Part shown: in pieces, positions 1 through 60,348 of the stretch
How the letters are laid out: every line of letters begins with the position of its first letter
Position numbering within the stretch: the stretch's first letter is position 1
Assembly: GCA_023662905.1 (NCBI GenBank)
Contig: JAMPIJ010000001.1
Coordinates: 49,911 to 113,910 of the forward strand
From: Fusobacterium sp.
Lineage (GTDB): Bacteria; Cyanobacteriota; Vampirovibrionia; Gastranaerophilales; Gastranaerophilaceae
DNA length: 64,000 bases
Direction of reading: 5' to 3'
Notes under the pieces: model-generated
What the model saw: only the letters and a program-made list of their open reading frames with translations
Told to the model about the DNA's origin: nothing
The model's database searches: none
Position numbers and translations under genes: made by a program

Positions 1-1057
1 GCCGGCTGAGCCGGTTCTATCTAAGACGTTGGCGTGCTGCCGTACAACGAAAATGAGGATGGCACTCAGTGCCTTTACAATGGCAGAGATTTTATTGTCA
101 TTAACAATTATTGGCGTAGTTGCGGCGATAACGTTGCCGTCGCTCACCGGAAATATTAACGAGCGGACTTGGAACACTCAGAGAAAAGCTTTGTATGCGC
201 GTATGTCACAGGCTTTGCCATTGATGGACGCACTGAATGGTTATGGAACCTATGTCGCTGCAAGCGGTACAGAGGGAACAGATTCTTATGTTGCAGGCAC
301 TGACAATGCCGCTGAAACATTTGTGACTGCAGGGTTGGCAAAAGTTCTCAAAATTAATAATATATGTTCTGACAAACTGGAAGATTGTGGTATTCCTGCG
401 GAAATTAACACCCTTGGCGGTAATAAAATTAGTACTCCAACTACAATGCAAGCCTTAAACGATAAAATGGTAGGAAGTTTTGCAGGTGGATTTTTTAACT
501 CTTTTACAATGTTGAATACTAAAGCTGCAGCGTTTGAAACGGCAAATGGCGAAAGTATTATTGTTTATTATAACCCGAGTTGTTCTGGAACACTTAATGA
601 AACTCCGTTTGATCAAAACGGTTCCGGTGGTGTTATTCGTGTTCAACGTAGAGTTTGCGCAAATTTTATTTATGACCTGAATGGTTCAAAAGGCCCGAAT
701 ACTGTTGGCAAAGACATCGGATTTATGACGGTTATGTATCCGTTTGATGCCTTGCTTTATTCGGTATATCCGGCTAATAGACCTTTAGCGCTTGTATCTG
801 GCAAGAAAGTATCAAAATTATGCACTGATTTTGATAGTGAATACAGGGCGCCTAATTTAGATGAATTGCTTGTAATGTTTGTGAACAAGAATTTAATAGA
901 CGCAGAATCGCATTCTGTTGTAACCAGCGGTCTTATGGCGCCAGCCTCTGATACTATGCGCTATGCAAATGGAAATAAAGCAGGAGTTGGCCAATCTTTA
1001 GTAAGCGGCTATCAAGATGATGATACCAGAACCGGTACATGGTGTGTAAAACGTTAA
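1..1057 (+). CDS. Type IV prepilin-like protein, paralog 1 (5' end cut by window)
   Basis: The frame is open from base 2 with no stop, so the gene probably enters from the left; the first usable codon inside the window is a TTG at 29. The signature SA|FTMAEILLSLTIIGVVAA is a class III/IV prepilin start: cleavage before F, Glu at +5 and a hydrophobic helix. Ala instead of Gly at -1 is shared by all three paralogs here. The body shares blocks with the genes at 3421 and 59389: AAAFETANGES, VCAN, DLNGSKGPNTVGKDIG and a C-terminal CVKR. Likely an exported minor pilin or pseudopilin, processed by a prepilin peptidase. The leader upstream of SAF is GC-rich and unlike an ordinary 6-8 residue prepilin leader; by analogy with the other two genes a poly-G tract may lie just left of the window, which cannot be seen. 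Confidence 0.85.
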   Translation, partial: PAEPVLSKTLACCRTTKMRMALSAFTMAEILLSLTIIGVVAAITLPSLTGNINERTWNTQRKALYARMSQALPLMDALNGYGTYVAASGTEGTDSYVAGTDNAAETFVTAGLAKVLKINNICSDKLEDCGIPAEINTLGGNKISTPTTMQALNDKMVGSFAGGFFNSFTMLNTKAAAFETANGESIIVYYNPSCSGTLNETPFDQNGSGGVIRVQRRVCANFIYDLNGSKGPNTVGKDIGFMTVMYPFDALLYSVYPANRPLALVSGKKVSKLCTDFDSEYRAPNLDELLVMFVNKNLIDAESHSVVTSGLMAPASDTMRYANGNKAGVGQSLVSGYQDDDTRTGTWCVKR

Positions 1058-3277: not shown

Positions 3278-3306
3278 TTGACTAATTAAAAAACATAGTT
3301 TAAACT
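3278..3306 (+). promoter_or_regulatory. Sigma70-type promoter of prepilin paralog 2
   Basis: -35 TTGACT (3278-3283), 17-base spacer, -10 TAAACT (3301-3306). It sits just before the Shine-Dalgarno AGAAAGG and the leader ATG at 3329. The equivalent arrangement precedes the paralog at 59.4 kb, so the gene is set up to be transcribed although its frame is broken. Confidence 0.7.
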
Positions 3307-3328
3307 AACTTTAGAAAGGATGGAACTT

Positions 3329-3379
3329 ATGAAAAACAAACTTATGAACACATTGACAGGGGGGGGGGGAGCCTGCTGA
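3329..3379 (+). other. Out-of-frame leader ORF of prepilin paralog 2
   Basis: ATG at 3329 (Shine-Dalgarno AGAAAGG 6-9 bases upstream; in-frame ATG also at 3320) opens MKNKLMNTLTGGGGAC and then TGA at 3377. The first ten codons match the leader of the gene at 59389 almost exactly. The G11 run at 3359-3369 puts it out of frame with the prepilin. In the prepilin frame there is no stop from the G run onward (GGGSLLSRPTESGATHC and on to SRAFTMAE), so +1 or -2 G would join leader and prepilin. Confidence 0.8.
3359..3369 (+). repeat. Poly-G tract (G11), candidate phase switch
   Basis: Eleven consecutive G inside the leader of the prepilin gene. In an AT-rich genome such a run is unexpected by chance and is a known slipped-strand mispairing substrate. 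At 11 G the gene is frame-broken; 12 or 9 would restore it. Confidence 0.9.
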
Positions 3380-3420
3380 GCCGCCCGACTGAGTCGGGAG
3401 CCACCCATTGCGACCCGAGC

Positions 3421-4353
3421 GTGTGGACGAAGTCACGTGCCTTTACAATGGCGGAGATTTTATTGTCATTAACAATTATTGGTGTAGTCGCTGCGATAAC
3501 GCTGCCGTCACTCACCGGTAATATTAACGAGCGGACGTGGAATACGCAGAGAAAAGCGCTTTTTGCCAGAATGTCACAGGCAATTGCTTTAATGCCGGCG
3601 TTGAATGGCTATGGAACTTATGATTCGGCGTCGAGTGTTGATACAGTCGCTGAAACTTTTATTACCGGAGGGTTATCAAAAGTTCTGAAAGTTAACAATG
3701 TTTGTGGTAAAGACAATGTTTTTGACTGCGGATTTGCAAGTAAAATTACGACTCTTGCTGGTAGTAATATAGATTTACCTCGTCAGTTTACCGATTTGAA
3801 TCCAAGTATTTTAAATGGAACGTTGGGGATTAGAAACACGAGTGCAGCTGCATTTGAAACTGTAAACGGCGAATCTATTCTTGCTTTTTATAATCCGAAT
3901 TGTGCCTCAAAAGATATTATTGCAACGGATAACAGTTCGGAGGGTGAGTTGGGATATTATATGAAACATTATGTATGTGCGAATTTGGTTTTTGACCTGA
4001 ACGGTTCCAAAGGGCCGAATACTGTTGGTAAAGATATAGGTGTAATGTCTGTGTTATATCCAACGGATTCTAGTGTTGTAATGCCTGTTCCGACACACAT
4101 TCTTAACGGGGTTTATGGACATTCCGATGGTGCAAGAGAGTGTGCTAATCGTGATTCCGATAACAGATTGCCAAATATCGAGGAATTGACCTCTATGTAT
4201 TATAACAGAACCTTGTTGGATTGGTCAGGTGGTGCATTTTGGTCATCAAATGTTGTTGATAGTGACACTGCTTGGGCATTTGGATTCGCTATTGGGCTGA
4301 AATATCCTAGAACTAAGGATACTGAAGAACAAATCCAATGTGTTAAGCGTTAA
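3421..4353 (+). CDS. Type IV prepilin-like protein, paralog 2 (phase-OFF configuration)
   Basis: From GTG 3421 the frame encodes WTKSRA|FTMAEILLSLTIIG, then a roughly 300-residue body homologous to the proteins ending at 1057 and 60348 (AAAFETVNGES, VCANLVFDLNGSKGPNTVGKDIG, C-terminal CVKR). The first 26 residues after cleavage are nearly identical among the paralogs while the C-terminal third diverges, as expected of surface-exposed pilin variants. The intended start is probably ATG 3329, whose frame is broken by the G11 tract; GTG 3421 has no clear ribosome binding site, though it would give a normal short prepilin leader if used. Likely exported by the type IV pilus/type II machinery. Confidence 0.85.
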   Translation: MWTKSRAFTMAEILLSLTIIGVVAAITLPSLTGNINERTWNTQRKALFARMSQAIALMPALNGYGTYDSASSVDTVAETFITGGLSKVLKVNNVCGKDNVFDCGFASKITTLAGSNIDLPRQFTDLNPSILNGTLGIRNTSAAAFETVNGESILAFYNPNCASKDIIATDNSSEGELGYYMKHYVCANLVFDLNGSKGPNTVGKDIGVMSVLYPTDSSVVMPVPTHILNGVYGHSDGARECANRDSDNRLPNIEELTSMYYNRTLLDWSGGAFWSSNVVDSDTAWAFGFAIGLKYPRTKDTEEQIQCVKR

Positions 4354-8198: not shown

Positions 8199-11027
8199 AT
8201 GGAGAAAAAGAAAAATTTAATACTAATTGACGGCCACGCTCTGGCTTTCAGGCAATATTTTGCGCTGGAGCGTACTGGAATGCGTACGTCGTCAGGGGTT
8301 CCGTCGTGGGCTGTTTTTGGATTTTTTAAAGCTGTTTTTGACTTGATGAAGAATAAAGATTTGGAACCTGATGCGATTGCAGTCACATTCGACGTCAGCC
8401 ATAATACGTTCAGAACTGCAGAGTACGCTGAATACAAAGCCAATCGTGAAAAAATGCCTGACGATATGCAGGTTCAGATGGGGCTTATTTATGACGGGTT
8501 GAAAGCTTTTAATATTCCGATTTATCAAAAAGAGGGATTTGAAGCGGACGACGTTATCGGTACGATTTCTAAAAAAGCTTGCGAACTCGGGCATAAAGTT
8601 TATATTCTGACAGGCGATCAGGACTCGTTTCAGCTTGTTGACACCGAGGGGTGTGTAAAGGTTATTATTCCGTCAAAGGGCGAACTCGTTGAATATGACT
8701 GGGATAAGGTTTATGAAAAATTAGGTGTTTATCCAAATCAGGTTATTGATTATAAGGCGCTCAGAGGTGATTCATCCGATAATATTCCGGGAATTAGAGG
8801 TATCGGTGAGAAAACTGCACAGAAACTTCTAACGGCCTATGGTGATTTGGATACGATTTATGAAAATGTCGAAAATATTAAGGAAAAGGCTGTTAAGGAA
8901 AAAATCAGAACGGGTAAAGATATTGCTTATATGAGCCGTTTTCTGGCAACAATTATCCGTGATGTTGATGTCGAATTTGATTTTGACAAGGCCTGCATTA
9001 ATCTGCCAAAACTTGCTGATGTCACTGATTTCTTGACTAAAATGCAGTTCTTTTCGTTTCTTAAAAATATTAAGACGATTCTGGAAACTTTCAACCGTAC
9101 CGGAACGAATTGTGGTGAAGATGATAACTCTAACGAACAATTAGGACTTTTCGGCGAAGAAGAGTCGGCTGAGTCAACTCTTGCGCGAAAAAACATTGTG
9201 GAACAAGAGGTTACGACTGTTGAAGAGTTTAATTCAATGGTTAAAAATATTAGAGAAAAAGGCGCTTTCTTCTTTTCTACCAATGCGACAGCCGATCATA
9301 TTTTAAAACAAAAAATTAATTATATTGCACTTGGTGTCGCAGATATCAAGGTTGACGCGGATAAGAGAATTTCGTTGTCAATTGACGAAACTAATAAAGC
9401 CTTTGTATATTATATTCCGCTGAATTTGCGTTATAACTTGTCGTTTGGCTCTTCTGGTGCGCTTATGCAAAGGTTTAAAGAGCTTTTTGAAGATGAAACT
9501 CTCGCGAAGATTACTGTTGATTCTAAAAAAGAATATAACACTCTCCGCTCAAACGCTATTGAGTTAAAGAATATAATTTTTGACGCTGTTCTTGCAAGTT
9601 ACGTTGAGAACCCGTCGAACAATCATGATATGGATGTTCAGGCGCTTCAATGCTTGAATATTTCGCCAGTAAAAGAGATGAATGTCAACGTTAAATCTGT
9701 TCAACTCGGGCTATTGGAAGACGGTGCGGATTATGCAAAAGCTTACCGTGAAATCTGGCTTTTGATGGAATTAACGAAATTTAGAGTTGAAAGTTTTGAT
9801 AATCAACACTGGAAACTCTTGCAACAGATGGAAATTCCGCTTGCCAAGGTTCTAGCGGATATGGAATACGACGGCGTTGCGATTAATATTAATTGTCTGA
9901 ACGAATTGACAGAGTTTTTAAATAAAAAAATTCGCAGACTGGAACGCTCAATTTTTGAGATTGCGGACGAGGGCTTTAACCTGAATTCGCCAAAACAAGT
10001 CGCGCAGATTTTGTTTGATAAACTTGGAATTCAGCATAAAAAGAAATCCCGCGGCCGTTCAACGTTTTCAACAAGTGCCGAGGTGCTTGAGGAACTCGCT
10101 GATGAACATGATATTGCGAAGTATTTGCTTCAATACAGAAAGTATTCTAAGTTGAAATCAACTTATACTGACGCGCTTCCAAACCTGATTAACCCTGTGG
10201 ATGGTCGAATTCATACGACTTACAACCAGACGATTACATCTACCGGCAGGCTGTCTTCTTCTAATCCTAACTTGCAAAATATTCCGATTAGAACAGATGA
10301 GGGCGAAAAAATTAGATCGGCTTTTGTTCCGCAAAATCCGGATAATTTGATTGTATCAGCCGACTACTCACAGATTGAATTGCGATTACTTGCGCATATT
10401 TCTGACGATAAAAACCTCCAACAGGCGTTTATTTTCGATAAAGATGTTCACGCGATTACAGCCTCAAATGTCTTTGAGGTTCCACTCTCAAGCGTTACCA
10501 AGCAAATGCGTGGGCTGGCAAAAACCGTTAACTTCGGTATTATTTACGGCCAAACACGTTACGGTCTTGCAAAAGCGATTAATATTACGCCGGAAGAGGC
10601 AGAGGACTTTATCAACCGTTATTTCTTGACCTATCCAGGGATTAAGCTTTATATGAACGCAATGATTGAACGTGTTATGATTGACGGGTTTGCAGAAACT
10701 ATTTTCGGCCGCCGTCGCTACTTCTTGAACGAAATATCCAGCGCAAACGCAATGGTTAGAGAGTTTGCAAAACGTGCGGCAATCAACTTCCCAATGCAGG
10801 GTTCTGCGTCTGATTTGATGAAGCTTGCAATGATTAGATTCTATAATGATTTGAAAAAACATAATTTAAAGTCGCGTCTAATTATGCAAGTACACGATGA
10901 AATGGTCGTGGAAGTTGAGCGTGACGAACTTGATATCGTCAAGAAGCTTTTGAGAGAGTCTATGGAACTCGATCAACCGCTTGCGGTTCCGTTGCTTGTG
11001 AATATTAAAGAGGGTTCAACATGGTAG
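8199..11027 (+). CDS. polA: DNA polymerase I
   Basis: About 942 residues from ATG 8199 (Shine-Dalgarno GAGGG directly upstream; an in-frame ATG at 8190 is less well placed). The N-terminal 5'-3' exonuclease domain has DGHALAFRQYF, EADDVIGT, TGDQDSFQLV and GDSSDNIPG (about 1-290). The middle 3'-5' exonuclease-like domain has FFSTNATADHI where an active enzyme has its DxE motif, so proofreading is probably lost. The polymerase domain has motif A SADYSQIELRLLAHIS, motif B KTVNFGIIYGQTRYGLA and motif C MQVHDEMVVEVE. Functions in Okazaki fragment processing and repair. The next gene overlaps its end by 7 bases. Confidence 0.97.
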   Translation: MEKKKNLILIDGHALAFRQYFALERTGMRTSSGVPSWAVFGFFKAVFDLMKNKDLEPDAIAVTFDVSHNTFRTAEYAEYKANREKMPDDMQVQMGLIYDGLKAFNIPIYQKEGFEADDVIGTISKKACELGHKVYILTGDQDSFQLVDTEGCVKVIIPSKGELVEYDWDKVYEKLGVYPNQVIDYKALRGDSSDNIPGIRGIGEKTAQKLLTAYGDLDTIYENVENIKEKAVKEKIRTGKDIAYMSRFLATIIRDVDVEFDFDKACINLPKLADVTDFLTKMQFFSFLKNIKTILETFNRTGTNCGEDDNSNEQLGLFGEEESAESTLARKNIVEQEVTTVEEFNSMVKNIREKGAFFFSTNATADHILKQKINYIALGVADIKVDADKRISLSIDETNKAFVYYIPLNLRYNLSFGSSGALMQRFKELFEDETLAKITVDSKKEYNTLRSNAIELKNIIFDAVLASYVENPSNNHDMDVQALQCLNISPVKEMNVNVKSVQLGLLEDGADYAKAYREIWLLMELTKFRVESFDNQHWKLLQQMEIPLAKVLADMEYDGVAININCLNELTEFLNKKIRRLERSIFEIADEGFNLNSPKQVAQILFDKLGIQHKKKSRGRSTFSTSAEVLEELADEHDIAKYLLQYRKYSKLKSTYTDALPNLINPVDGRIHTTYNQTITSTGRLSSSNPNLQNIPIRTDEGEKIRSAFVPQNPDNLIVSADYSQIELRLLAHISDDKNLQQAFIFDKDVHAITASNVFEVPLSSVTKQMRGLAKTVNFGIIYGQTRYGLAKAINITPEEAEDFINRYFLTYPGIKLYMNAMIERVMIDGFAETIFGRRRYFLNEISSANAMVREFAKRAAINFPMQGSASDLMKLAMIRFYNDLKKHNLKSRLIMQVHDEMVVEVERDELDIVKKLLRESMELDQPLAVPLLVNIKEGSTW

Positions 11028-21307: not shown

Positions 21308-22473
21308 GTAATGCTTGATTTCCTTGGTAACAATCTACACAATTCATCTGTGCAGATTTTTTTGACTTTATTAAATCTCGGATTTTTTATTCCTTTGATT
21401 CTGATGATTTCGTCCCTGATAACCATTGCAGGTATTGATTTCAGGCCGCTTATGTCGAGATTTATTTTGCCGTTTGAGGCGATGAATATTTCGTTTTTGA
21501 GTGAAAAAATGTATTCTTTTATCTTAGATTTTGCATTTGGGGTTTTGAAATTCTGCCATTCGTTGTCGTGGATTTCAATAAGTCTGGTTATATGTTTTTG
21601 GAAATGTTCTGCCATATTCGGGTTTAGAGCGTGCTGATTGTTGATTGAAATCGCACCGCGGGCTGCGTTATCAGCGCTGCATTCCCAGATTACCAGACTT
21701 CCACCTTGAGATTCTGGGATTATGTGTTCGAGGGTCGCAAAATCGTCTGCAAACATTTTCATTCCGATGTTTTCAGGATCACGAACCGCGTATTTGACGA
21801 TGTATGCGTTTTCGCTGGTATCCGAAGTTGGTAGTTTTCTGATTGTTTCAACAATTTTTGCCGCAAGTTCTTTTTCTTTAACTTTTTTGGCTAATTTATC
21901 AAACTTTGCAATAGTGCGTTTTCTTTTGAACCTTTTGTCTGTATCGACTTCTGGTTTGAATATTTCTTCGAATGTTGAGCCGATAATTTTTCTGAGTTCT
22001 TCGCCTTTTTGTGGCGGAAGTTCGCGTGATAAAAAGTTTAAGCTGTCTAGAACTTCCCGTTGCTCTAAAATCAACGCTTTTTCAGCTTCTGGATACATCA
22101 CTTCTAATAGTCCCTGAATATTTTTGTCAGGATGTTGTGGGGCTAATTCGCTCATTTTACTATATATGGTTTTATTCATCGGCGTCATTTCGTCTAGGTG
22201 AGGCGCGAAGAATTTTAATGTTTCTGTCGCTGGCTCGCTCAAACGTTCCAGCGGAATCATAGGCTTTTCGCAAACCGGACACGGGAGGCCGAAACTTAAT
22301 ATCTCTTTTAAAAATTTTTTTGGAAATCTTTCGTCTAATCTGGCGCTAAAACTAACGGTATCAATATTGCTAACAAACATGTCGGTAGGGGGGGGGGCTG
22401 CCTTAACAGGTGTTTGTGATTGAACGTTATAATTGTTTTTATATAAATTTATTGAAATAGGTGCTATTCTCAT
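21304..22473 (-). CDS. HNH-like protein with poly-C tract near its start
   Basis: 389 residues. The N-terminus MRIAPISINLYKNNYNVQSQ is followed by a proline triplet encoded by a C10 run, then IDTVSFSARLDE. A CPVC pair (about residues 67-70) and a later DFATLEHIIPESQGGSLVIW ... CSADNAARGA resemble the HNH nuclease core (D/E-H-I-x-P-x-S-x-GG ... N ... R), with LEH as the first HNH residue. The long helical middle (about 100-220) is Lys/Glu-rich. A nuclease function is inferred from motif spacing only. The C10 tract is in frame now; any non-multiple-of-3 change would stop translation within the first 40 codons. Same strand and immediately upstream of the rpsL promoter. Confidence 0.65.
   Translation of the reverse strand: MRIAPISINLYKNNYNVQSQTPVKAAPPPTDMFVSNIDTVSFSARLDERFPKKFLKEILSFGLPCPVCEKPMIPLERLSEPATETLKFFAPHLDEMTPMNKTIYSKMSELAPQHPDKNIQGLLEVMYPEAEKALILEQREVLDSLNFLSRELPPQKGEELRKIIGSTFEEIFKPEVDTDKRFKRKRTIAKFDKLAKKVKEKELAAKIVETIRKLPTSDTSENAYIVKYAVRDPENIGMKMFADDFATLEHIIPESQGGSLVIWECSADNAARGAISINNQHALNPNMAEHFQKHITRLIEIHDNEWQNFKTPNAKSKIKEYIFSLKNEIFIASNGKINLDISGLKSIPAMVIRDEIIRIKGIKNPRFNKVKKICTDELCRLLPRKSSIT
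22388..22397. repeat. Poly-G/C tract (10) inside the HNH-like gene
   Basis: Ten G on the plus strand, equivalent to C10 in the coding strand, giving GCC CCC CCC CCT (Ala-Pro-Pro-Pro). In frame in this sequence. Confidence 0.88.
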
Positions 22474-59388: not shown

Positions 59389-60348
59389 ATGAAAAACAAA
59401 CTTATGTTCATGTTGACAGGGGGGGGGGGGCGTTCCTTAACCGCTTTTACTATGGCTGAGATATTGCTCTCGCTTACAATCATCGGCGTAGTTGCGGCGA
59501 TAACGCTGCCGTCTTTAACAGGCAACATTAACGAACGCACATGGAACACTCAGCGCAAAGCGCTTTTTGCGCGATTTAGTCAGGCAATTGCATTAATGCC
59601 AGCGCTTAACGGATATGGAACGCTTGATGGTACAACAGACACCGCCGCTGAAACTTTTATTACGTCAGGCTTGTCTAAAGTTCTAAAGATTAATAATATT
59701 TGTTCTGATAACCTTAAGGATTGTGGCATTACGTCAAATATTAACACCACAGGTTCTGCAGTGCCTGTGCCGGAAAATTGGTCTGCGCTAAATCCTCTAA
59801 TGATCAGTGACAGCTATTCATTGTTAGGCTCGCACTCAATGCTAAACTCTAAGGCGGCAGCGTTTGAAACGGCAAACGGGGAATCAATTATTGTTTATTA
59901 TAATTCGGCTTGTAGAGGGGATAATTTCACGGAGAATACTTCCTATTTGATTGAACCTTATGTATGTGCAAATTTAATATACGATTTGAATGGTACAAAA
60001 GGTCCAAATACTGTCGGCAAAGACATTGGATTTATGACCATATTGTATTCATCAGATTCAAAAGTTGTTGCACCAACACTTGAAGGAAATACTACAAACG
60101 GTAAAAATCTCAAAGATGCCCAAAGTTATTGCCGGGATTTGGATAATGCACGCTTACCGAACAGAGAAGAAGCTATGGCCATAGCAGTTAATAAAAAATT
60201 ATTACCATCAATAACTTCAGAGTCCATCCTGTCTTCGTATTTGTGGCAAAATGGGTTGGTAGGTCACATGACTATGAGCAATAAAGCTGTTTTTGGTAAA
60301 ATATTAAAAGATGATACTTCAAAAGATACACAGTGTGTAAAACGCTAA
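59389..60348 (+). CDS. Type IV prepilin-like protein, paralog 3 (phase-ON configuration)
   Basis: About 319 residues from ATG 59389 (Shine-Dalgarno AGAAAGG; an in-frame ATG at 59380 lies too close to it). Leader MKNKLMFMLTGGGGRSLTA, cleaved before FTMAEILLSLTIIGVVAA. The four Gly are encoded by a G12 run. The body shares AAAFETANGES, VCANLIYDLNGTKGPNTVGKDIG and CVKR with the genes ending at 1057 and 4353. With G12 the frame is intact, so this copy is expressed. The leader of 19 residues is long for a prepilin. Ends in its own hairpin terminator. Confidence 0.88.
   Translation: MKNKLMFMLTGGGGRSLTAFTMAEILLSLTIIGVVAAITLPSLTGNINERTWNTQRKALFARFSQAIALMPALNGYGTLDGTTDTAAETFITSGLSKVLKINNICSDNLKDCGITSNINTTGSAVPVPENWSALNPLMISDSYSLLGSHSMLNSKAAAFETANGESIIVYYNSACRGDNFTENTSYLIEPYVCANLIYDLNGTKGPNTVGKDIGFMTILYSSDSKVVAPTLEGNTTNGKNLKDAQSYCRDLDNARLPNREEAMAIAVNKKLLPSITSESILSSYLWQNGLVGHMTMSNKAVFGKILKDDTSKDTQCVKR
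59419..59430 (+). repeat. Poly-G tract (G12), candidate phase switch
   Basis: Twelve G between the leader codons and the prepilin body, encoding GGGG in frame. Any change not divisible by three would disconnect leader and body. Confidence 0.9.

Follow-up and report, generated by a model that had tools for sequence, protein, structure and literature searches.

The window analysed here is the whole stretch of 64,000 nt (GC 36%) at positions 49,911-113,910 of the forward strand of contig JAMPIJ010000001.1, from a 1.74 Mb, 54-contig genome of the Gastranaerophilus lineage. Near its start lies a prepilin gene with a run of eleven G residues in its leader. The parts of this focal gene, and two sibling prepilins in the same window, were located as follows.

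29..1057, + strand: a sibling prepilin whose mature body starts at 74; the 100-N scaffold gap upstream takes in the leader and any tract
3278..3306, + strand: promoter-like pair TTGACT-17-TAAACT, weak (9/12 matches to consensus)
3313..3320, + strand: Shine-Dalgarno sequence AGAAAGGA, directly read, with ATG 3329 downstream
3329..3358, + strand: leader MKNKLMNTLT, ATG plus 9 codons (30 nt)
3359..3369, + strand: G11 tract, directly read; proposed ON/OFF switch
3370..3441, + strand: post-tract segment of 72 nt, open in the prepilin frame, of a type shared with three other prepilin leaders (94-96% identity)
3377..3379, + strand: TGA stop of the leader frame when the tract is G11 (OFF state), from translation
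3384-3398: palindrome CCCGACTGAGTCGGG inside the post-tract segment
3442..4353, + strand: mature pilin body, with N-terminus FTMAEILLSLTIIGVV, then a variable head with an Lcl_C-like domain at its end
59389..60348, + strand: a sibling prepilin in frame (ON), with 30-nt leader, G12 at 59419-59430, 15-nt post-tract segment and mature body from 59446

The initial annotation had described the promoter, ribosome site and ATG of the focal gene as intact, and all three were found. The promoter-like pair is weak; among 59 sibling genes, TTGAC nevertheless recurs upstream in 46, and 58 have a Shine-Dalgarno-like site before the start. The G11 tract follows codon 10, as a mononucleotide run inside the reading frame near its 5' end. 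From the ATG the leader frame translates to MKNKLMNTLTGGGGAC and stops after 16 codons, to the base where the annotation had placed the stop, and the prepilin frame is free of stops from within the tract to a TAA at 4351-4353, again as annotated. The proposed arithmetic, by which one added G (12) or two lost (9) joins the frames, also holds, because G12, like any tract length divisible by 3, fuses leader and prepilin. In the assembled consensus the focal gene is therefore OFF by frame. Some leaky expression may occur, since an in-frame GTG is present downstream of the tract at 3421, although without a clear ribosome site. The 72-nt post-tract segment was considered as a mobile insert; this was unsupported, as within the host genome it matched prepilin leaders only.

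About 56 kb away on the same contig, the sibling at ATG 59389 has a leader (MKNKLMFMLT) much like that of the focal gene, and leader and pilin form one frame of 319 residues. With this shared design, G11 at 3329 against G12 at 59389 places OFF and ON copies on one contig: by translation the first is truncated at 3377, the second is read through, and tract length decides between them. G tracts were far above chance in the window, with three of G10-G12 found where shuffled sequence gave about 0.05 runs of G8 per window. The 100-N scaffold gap (G000:C11:49811-49910) directly precedes the window, between two divergent prepilin genes.

The focal protein carries a prepilin motif, RA/FTMAEILLSLTIIGVVAAI, with the [G/A]-F-x3-E pattern followed by a hydrophobic stretch. 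It matched N_methyl PF07963 at 21.7 bits (cut-off 21.2) and TIGR02532 at 18.1 (cut-off 16.3). At the other end, Lcl_C PF07603 scored 20.9 bits (E 4.5e-4), under its curated cut-off of 34.9. Across 105 copies, mature residues 1-40 were almost invariant (mean entropy 0.08-0.19 bits), and three of the last four 20-residue blocks were highly variable (2.8-3.1 bits), followed by a final CVKR. A structure model built from 12 sequences had a mean pLDDT of 73.6, low in the first 30 residues. Its best Foldseek match was the C-terminal domain of the Legionella adhesin Lcl (PDB 8q4e; E 1.7e-4), with C-type lectin folds next; a sequence search of solved structures gave weak N-terminal pilin matches only. 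The N_methyl match, the variable C-terminal blocks and the Lcl and C-type lectin fold matches together suggest a protein whose stalk is of pilin type and whose variable head is lectin-like, and by extension a probable role in adhesion. The likeness to Lcl is one of resemblance in the head domain, by fold and by a Pfam score below cut-off; here, in contrast, the head sits on a pilin-type N-terminus and has no known ligand. A prepilin peptidase (Peptidase_A24) is encoded elsewhere in the genome (G000:C21; E 9e-8, above cut-off).

The focal gene belongs to a very large family. Its prepilin core had more than 110 matches in the genome, and 113 distinct prepilin-type N-termini were recovered from genome stretches around tracts and prepilins, along with 105 bodies of about 280 aa or longer. 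Runs of at least nine G's numbered 112. Among the 100 that were individually listed, 62 were followed on the same strand, at a distance below 260 nt, by a prepilin core, 23 met a contig end just downstream, and 15 were located elsewhere; those contig-end tracts that were fetched with flanks (L299-L303) have a prepilin-type leader. Approximately 16 prepilin-type genes have no tract and begin with a plain short leader such as MKKAFTMAEIL. GGG was the rarest glycine codon in the prepilin bodies (196/1275), so the pure G run does not reflect ordinary codon choice. Many contig ends and gaps of the assembly coincide with prepilin leaders: contig ends truncate 24 prepilin N-termini, and 7 have N gaps.

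Frame states were scored in the 60 copies in which start, tract and core are all complete. Twenty-four were in frame, 19 were at +1 and 17 at +2, a near-random distribution that did not depart from equal thirds (chi-square p=0.52, n=60). Tract length spanned G9-G16, most often 11 or 12, and the leader was exactly 30 nt in 42/60 copies. In the main class, where leader and post-tract segment are both multiples of 3, we counted G12 in 19 copies, G11 in 13, G13 in 6, G10 in 3, and G15 and G16 in one each. Because assembly is weakest at these tracts, the tract length of an individual copy, that of the focal gene too, may be wrong by one base and with it the assigned state; the genome-wide pattern is independent of any one copy.

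Out-of-frame copies did not have the features of dead genes. All 34 OFF copies whose end was recovered had full-length bodies of 292-329 aa without a premature stop, and the median pN/pS to the most similar OFF copy was 0.35, compared with 0.38 among ON copies. The stretch from the tract to 60 nt into the core was open in the prepilin frame in 60/60 copies, and in the other two frames in 22/60 and 2/60. By these measures OFF copies are intact and as constrained as in-frame ones. Internal starts after the tract were rejected as a general rescue, since an in-frame alternative was present in just 5 of the 36 OFF copies, among them the focal gene.

To place the tracts in a wider context, related genomes were compared. 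Five of six other species of the genus contained 87-132 tracts each; the sixth (G005) had none, and its prepilins of this kind number about six, with leaders that are short and plain (e.g. MKKFKA). The same leader-tract design was seen at G10-G14 in other species of the genus, and a G tract 4-30 nt before a prepilin motif was found in 22 of 116 genomes, against 0 for the reversed control. In tract-bearing prepilins examined from other genera, 15/15 were open from the core back to the tract. A related genus (G065) has C9-C13 in place of G in the prepilin leader, with a near-constant 15-nt segment and mixed lengths; judged from sequence, no other comparative evidence points as strongly to selection for slippage itself as this apparent poly-C version of the switch. 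Frames were non-random in one small sample, the best matches to the focal protein in G001-G004, where 17/17 scorable copies were at +1; the tracts listed by pattern in the same genomes, unlike that sample, include in-frame lengths.

At a site between a glutaredoxin-like gene and tig, the tract is G11 in the host genome and G13 in a relative (trigger factor 98% identical); this is not a clean single-tract comparison because leader, post-tract segment and body differ as well. Candidatus Gastranaerophilus phascolarctosicola Zag_221 has a tract with an assembly gap between the same two genes. In G001 (L172, ~9884-9914) both the prepilin and a small membrane gene are absent from this site, and prepilin genes thus seem to be gained and lost as units. 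Loss of MutS was rejected as an explanation of the tracts: MutS_I was present in 7/7 genus genomes, including the tract-free one. Mismatch repair is not obviously lost, and the switching rate therefore cannot be guessed from repair loss.

Taken across the genome, these patterns very probably identify the G tract as a slipped-strand, translational ON/OFF switch for type IV pilin-like adhesins that form a very large family. As read in the sequence, each switchable copy starts with a ribosome site of its own and a short leader, in most cases of 10 codons; an uninterrupted G run and a segment open in the prepilin frame follow, then a core holding the cleavage and methylation site, and a variable head. 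When leader, tract and segment sum to a multiple of 3, the protein is joined (ON); with other sums translation ends in another frame (OFF), after 16 codons in the focal gene. Slippage at replication would alter the tract by one or a few G's, and each cell would then express a different random subset of copies. The poly-glycine and everything else before the core would be removed by prepilin peptidase, so that a change of three G's either way should leave the mature pilin intact, because the tract lies upstream of the cleavage site in the removed part. A likely benefit would be diversity in adhesion, or escape at the cell surface from phage, host or competitors. The initial annotation had called the prepilin gene switched OFF by its G11 tract, and this reading is supported: the 60 siblings in mixed frames, the intact and constrained OFF bodies, the open frame up to the tract and the other lengths in relatives all argue for a reversible switch rather than a dead gene.

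The tract lengths could instead be assembly errors, with all genes truly in frame and simply ON. Homopolymers are error-prone and short-read assemblies can misjudge them by one base; the 23 tracts and 24 cut prepilin N-termini at contig ends, and the 7 N gaps, fit such a view. However, 36/60 copies would need to be wrong, in both directions, at +1 and +2. Differing exact lengths moreover recur in independent assemblies of other species, one genus has C rather than G, and pure G runs would be left unexplained where other glycine codons are preferred. We regard assembly error as very unlikely. Degeneration is extremely improbable as the general cause: a large multigene family with 36/60 copies out of frame might be expected to hold pseudogenes among its duplicates, but 34 complete OFF bodies without a premature stop, at pN/pS 0.35, largely refute the idea that most out-of-frame copies are of this kind.

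Slippage might also take place during expression. Long homopolymers are able to cause transcriptional slippage in bacteria, and if it were RNA polymerase or the ribosome that slipped at the tract, the tract would have a fixed length in DNA and OFF copies would still yield some full-length pilin. That OFF bodies are constrained in the same way as ON bodies is consistent with this, and the 17/17 sample at +1 in relatives could fit a preferred shifted state. A programmed site predicts one conserved length, however, and the tracts here spanned G9-G16 with frames near uniform; we consider this explanation unlikely, although slippage of RNA polymerase or the ribosome may supplement slippage in DNA rather than replace it. 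The OFF copies might otherwise serve as silent cassettes that donate sequence to ON copies by gene conversion, as with Neisseria pilS and pilE. Post-tract segments of the same type are shared by copies with different leaders and bodies, and the near-invariant N-terminal core adjoins variable heads, both of which would suit such exchange. Unlike promoterless pilS, each OFF copy retains an ATG and leader with a ribosome site and promoter-like sequence of its own, and in place of silent cassettes with a single expression locus the copies here have their own upstream signals and starts. A donor role is accordingly unlikely as the main explanation, and recombination among copies may occur in addition to a slipped-strand switch.

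Such a switch would resemble classical systems in several respects. In Neisseria pilC the poly-G/C run is located in the signal-peptide region, and its frameshift turns a type IV pilus gene ON or OFF. PilC, however, is a tip and biogenesis protein with two copies, and here the tract lies in the prepilin leader of about 100 pilin-like subunits. The pilC run is genic, G(9-20) (PMC5953494). The opa genes of Neisseria, likewise a multigene surface family whose copies are switched independently by an in-frame repeat, have 4 expected copies in meningococcus and 11-12 in gonococcus (PMC5953494); they differ in using a CTTCT pentamer, in numbering about 10, and in encoding outer-membrane proteins rather than pilins. 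Campylobacter jejuni NCTC11168 also has many poly-G/C contingency tracts, with 29 loci carrying tracts of 7 or more (PMC4965091); these largely concern enzymes that modify surface structures (PMC8437040) and not one expanded adhesin family.

Homopolymer phase variation is thus known and classical; what is new is its apparent use in about 100 pilin subunits of one small genome from an uncultured gut lineage. The initial annotation had noted no known description of G-tract variation for prepilin-like proteins of this lineage, and in the open-access literature we found no description of phase variation or pilin families in Gastranaerophilales/Melainabacteria. The fuller picture, somewhat favored by these results, is one of about 100 randomly switched type IV pilin adhesins encoded in 1.74 Mb, with the switch in a discarded leader, a C-based version in a sister genus, and the tract perhaps part of a short dispersed element. 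As a single-family repertoire this would exceed gonococcal opa roughly tenfold, and it occurs in a gut lineage that is largely uncultured. Cells of one population are predicted to display differing pilin sets; annotation pipelines are predicted to call these genes short or missing, and genome assembly to break at them. Adhesion and strain variation in Gastranaerophilales become testable with existing metagenome reads.

Some tracts outside the prepilins share a flank with those in the leaders. The flank CTNANCNG occurred no more than 18 nt after the G run at 7 of the 15 non-prepilin tracts, against a background of 0.6%, and also after 39/60 prepilin tracts. One example is CTGCCTTAACAGG at 22398, beside the tract at 22388-22397; the other loci are L285, L288-L290, L297 and L298. 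Because unrelated tract-bearing genes share the 3' flank of the tract, the tract itself may be carried within a short dispersed element. The tract at 22388-22397 lies early in a minus-strand gene of about 390 codons (MRIAPISINLYKN...KAAPPPTDM), as C10 on the coding strand and in frame; the same C10 is present in one relative, and an assembly gap lies there in another. In other species of the genus (L248, L250, L254, L255, L259), the post-tract segments are 150-220 nt long and include palindromes and repeats that resemble dispersed intergenic repeats (GTCGACTGAGTCGAC; TTCGGGATGAC), perhaps tolerated since the leader is cut off. A related genus (G019; e.g. L314, L322, L330) has dozens of near-identical G9-G10 tracts, which read on the other strand as ATGAGCGGTTTACCCCCCCCCC..., with poly-C close to what may be the start of a further repeated gene family.
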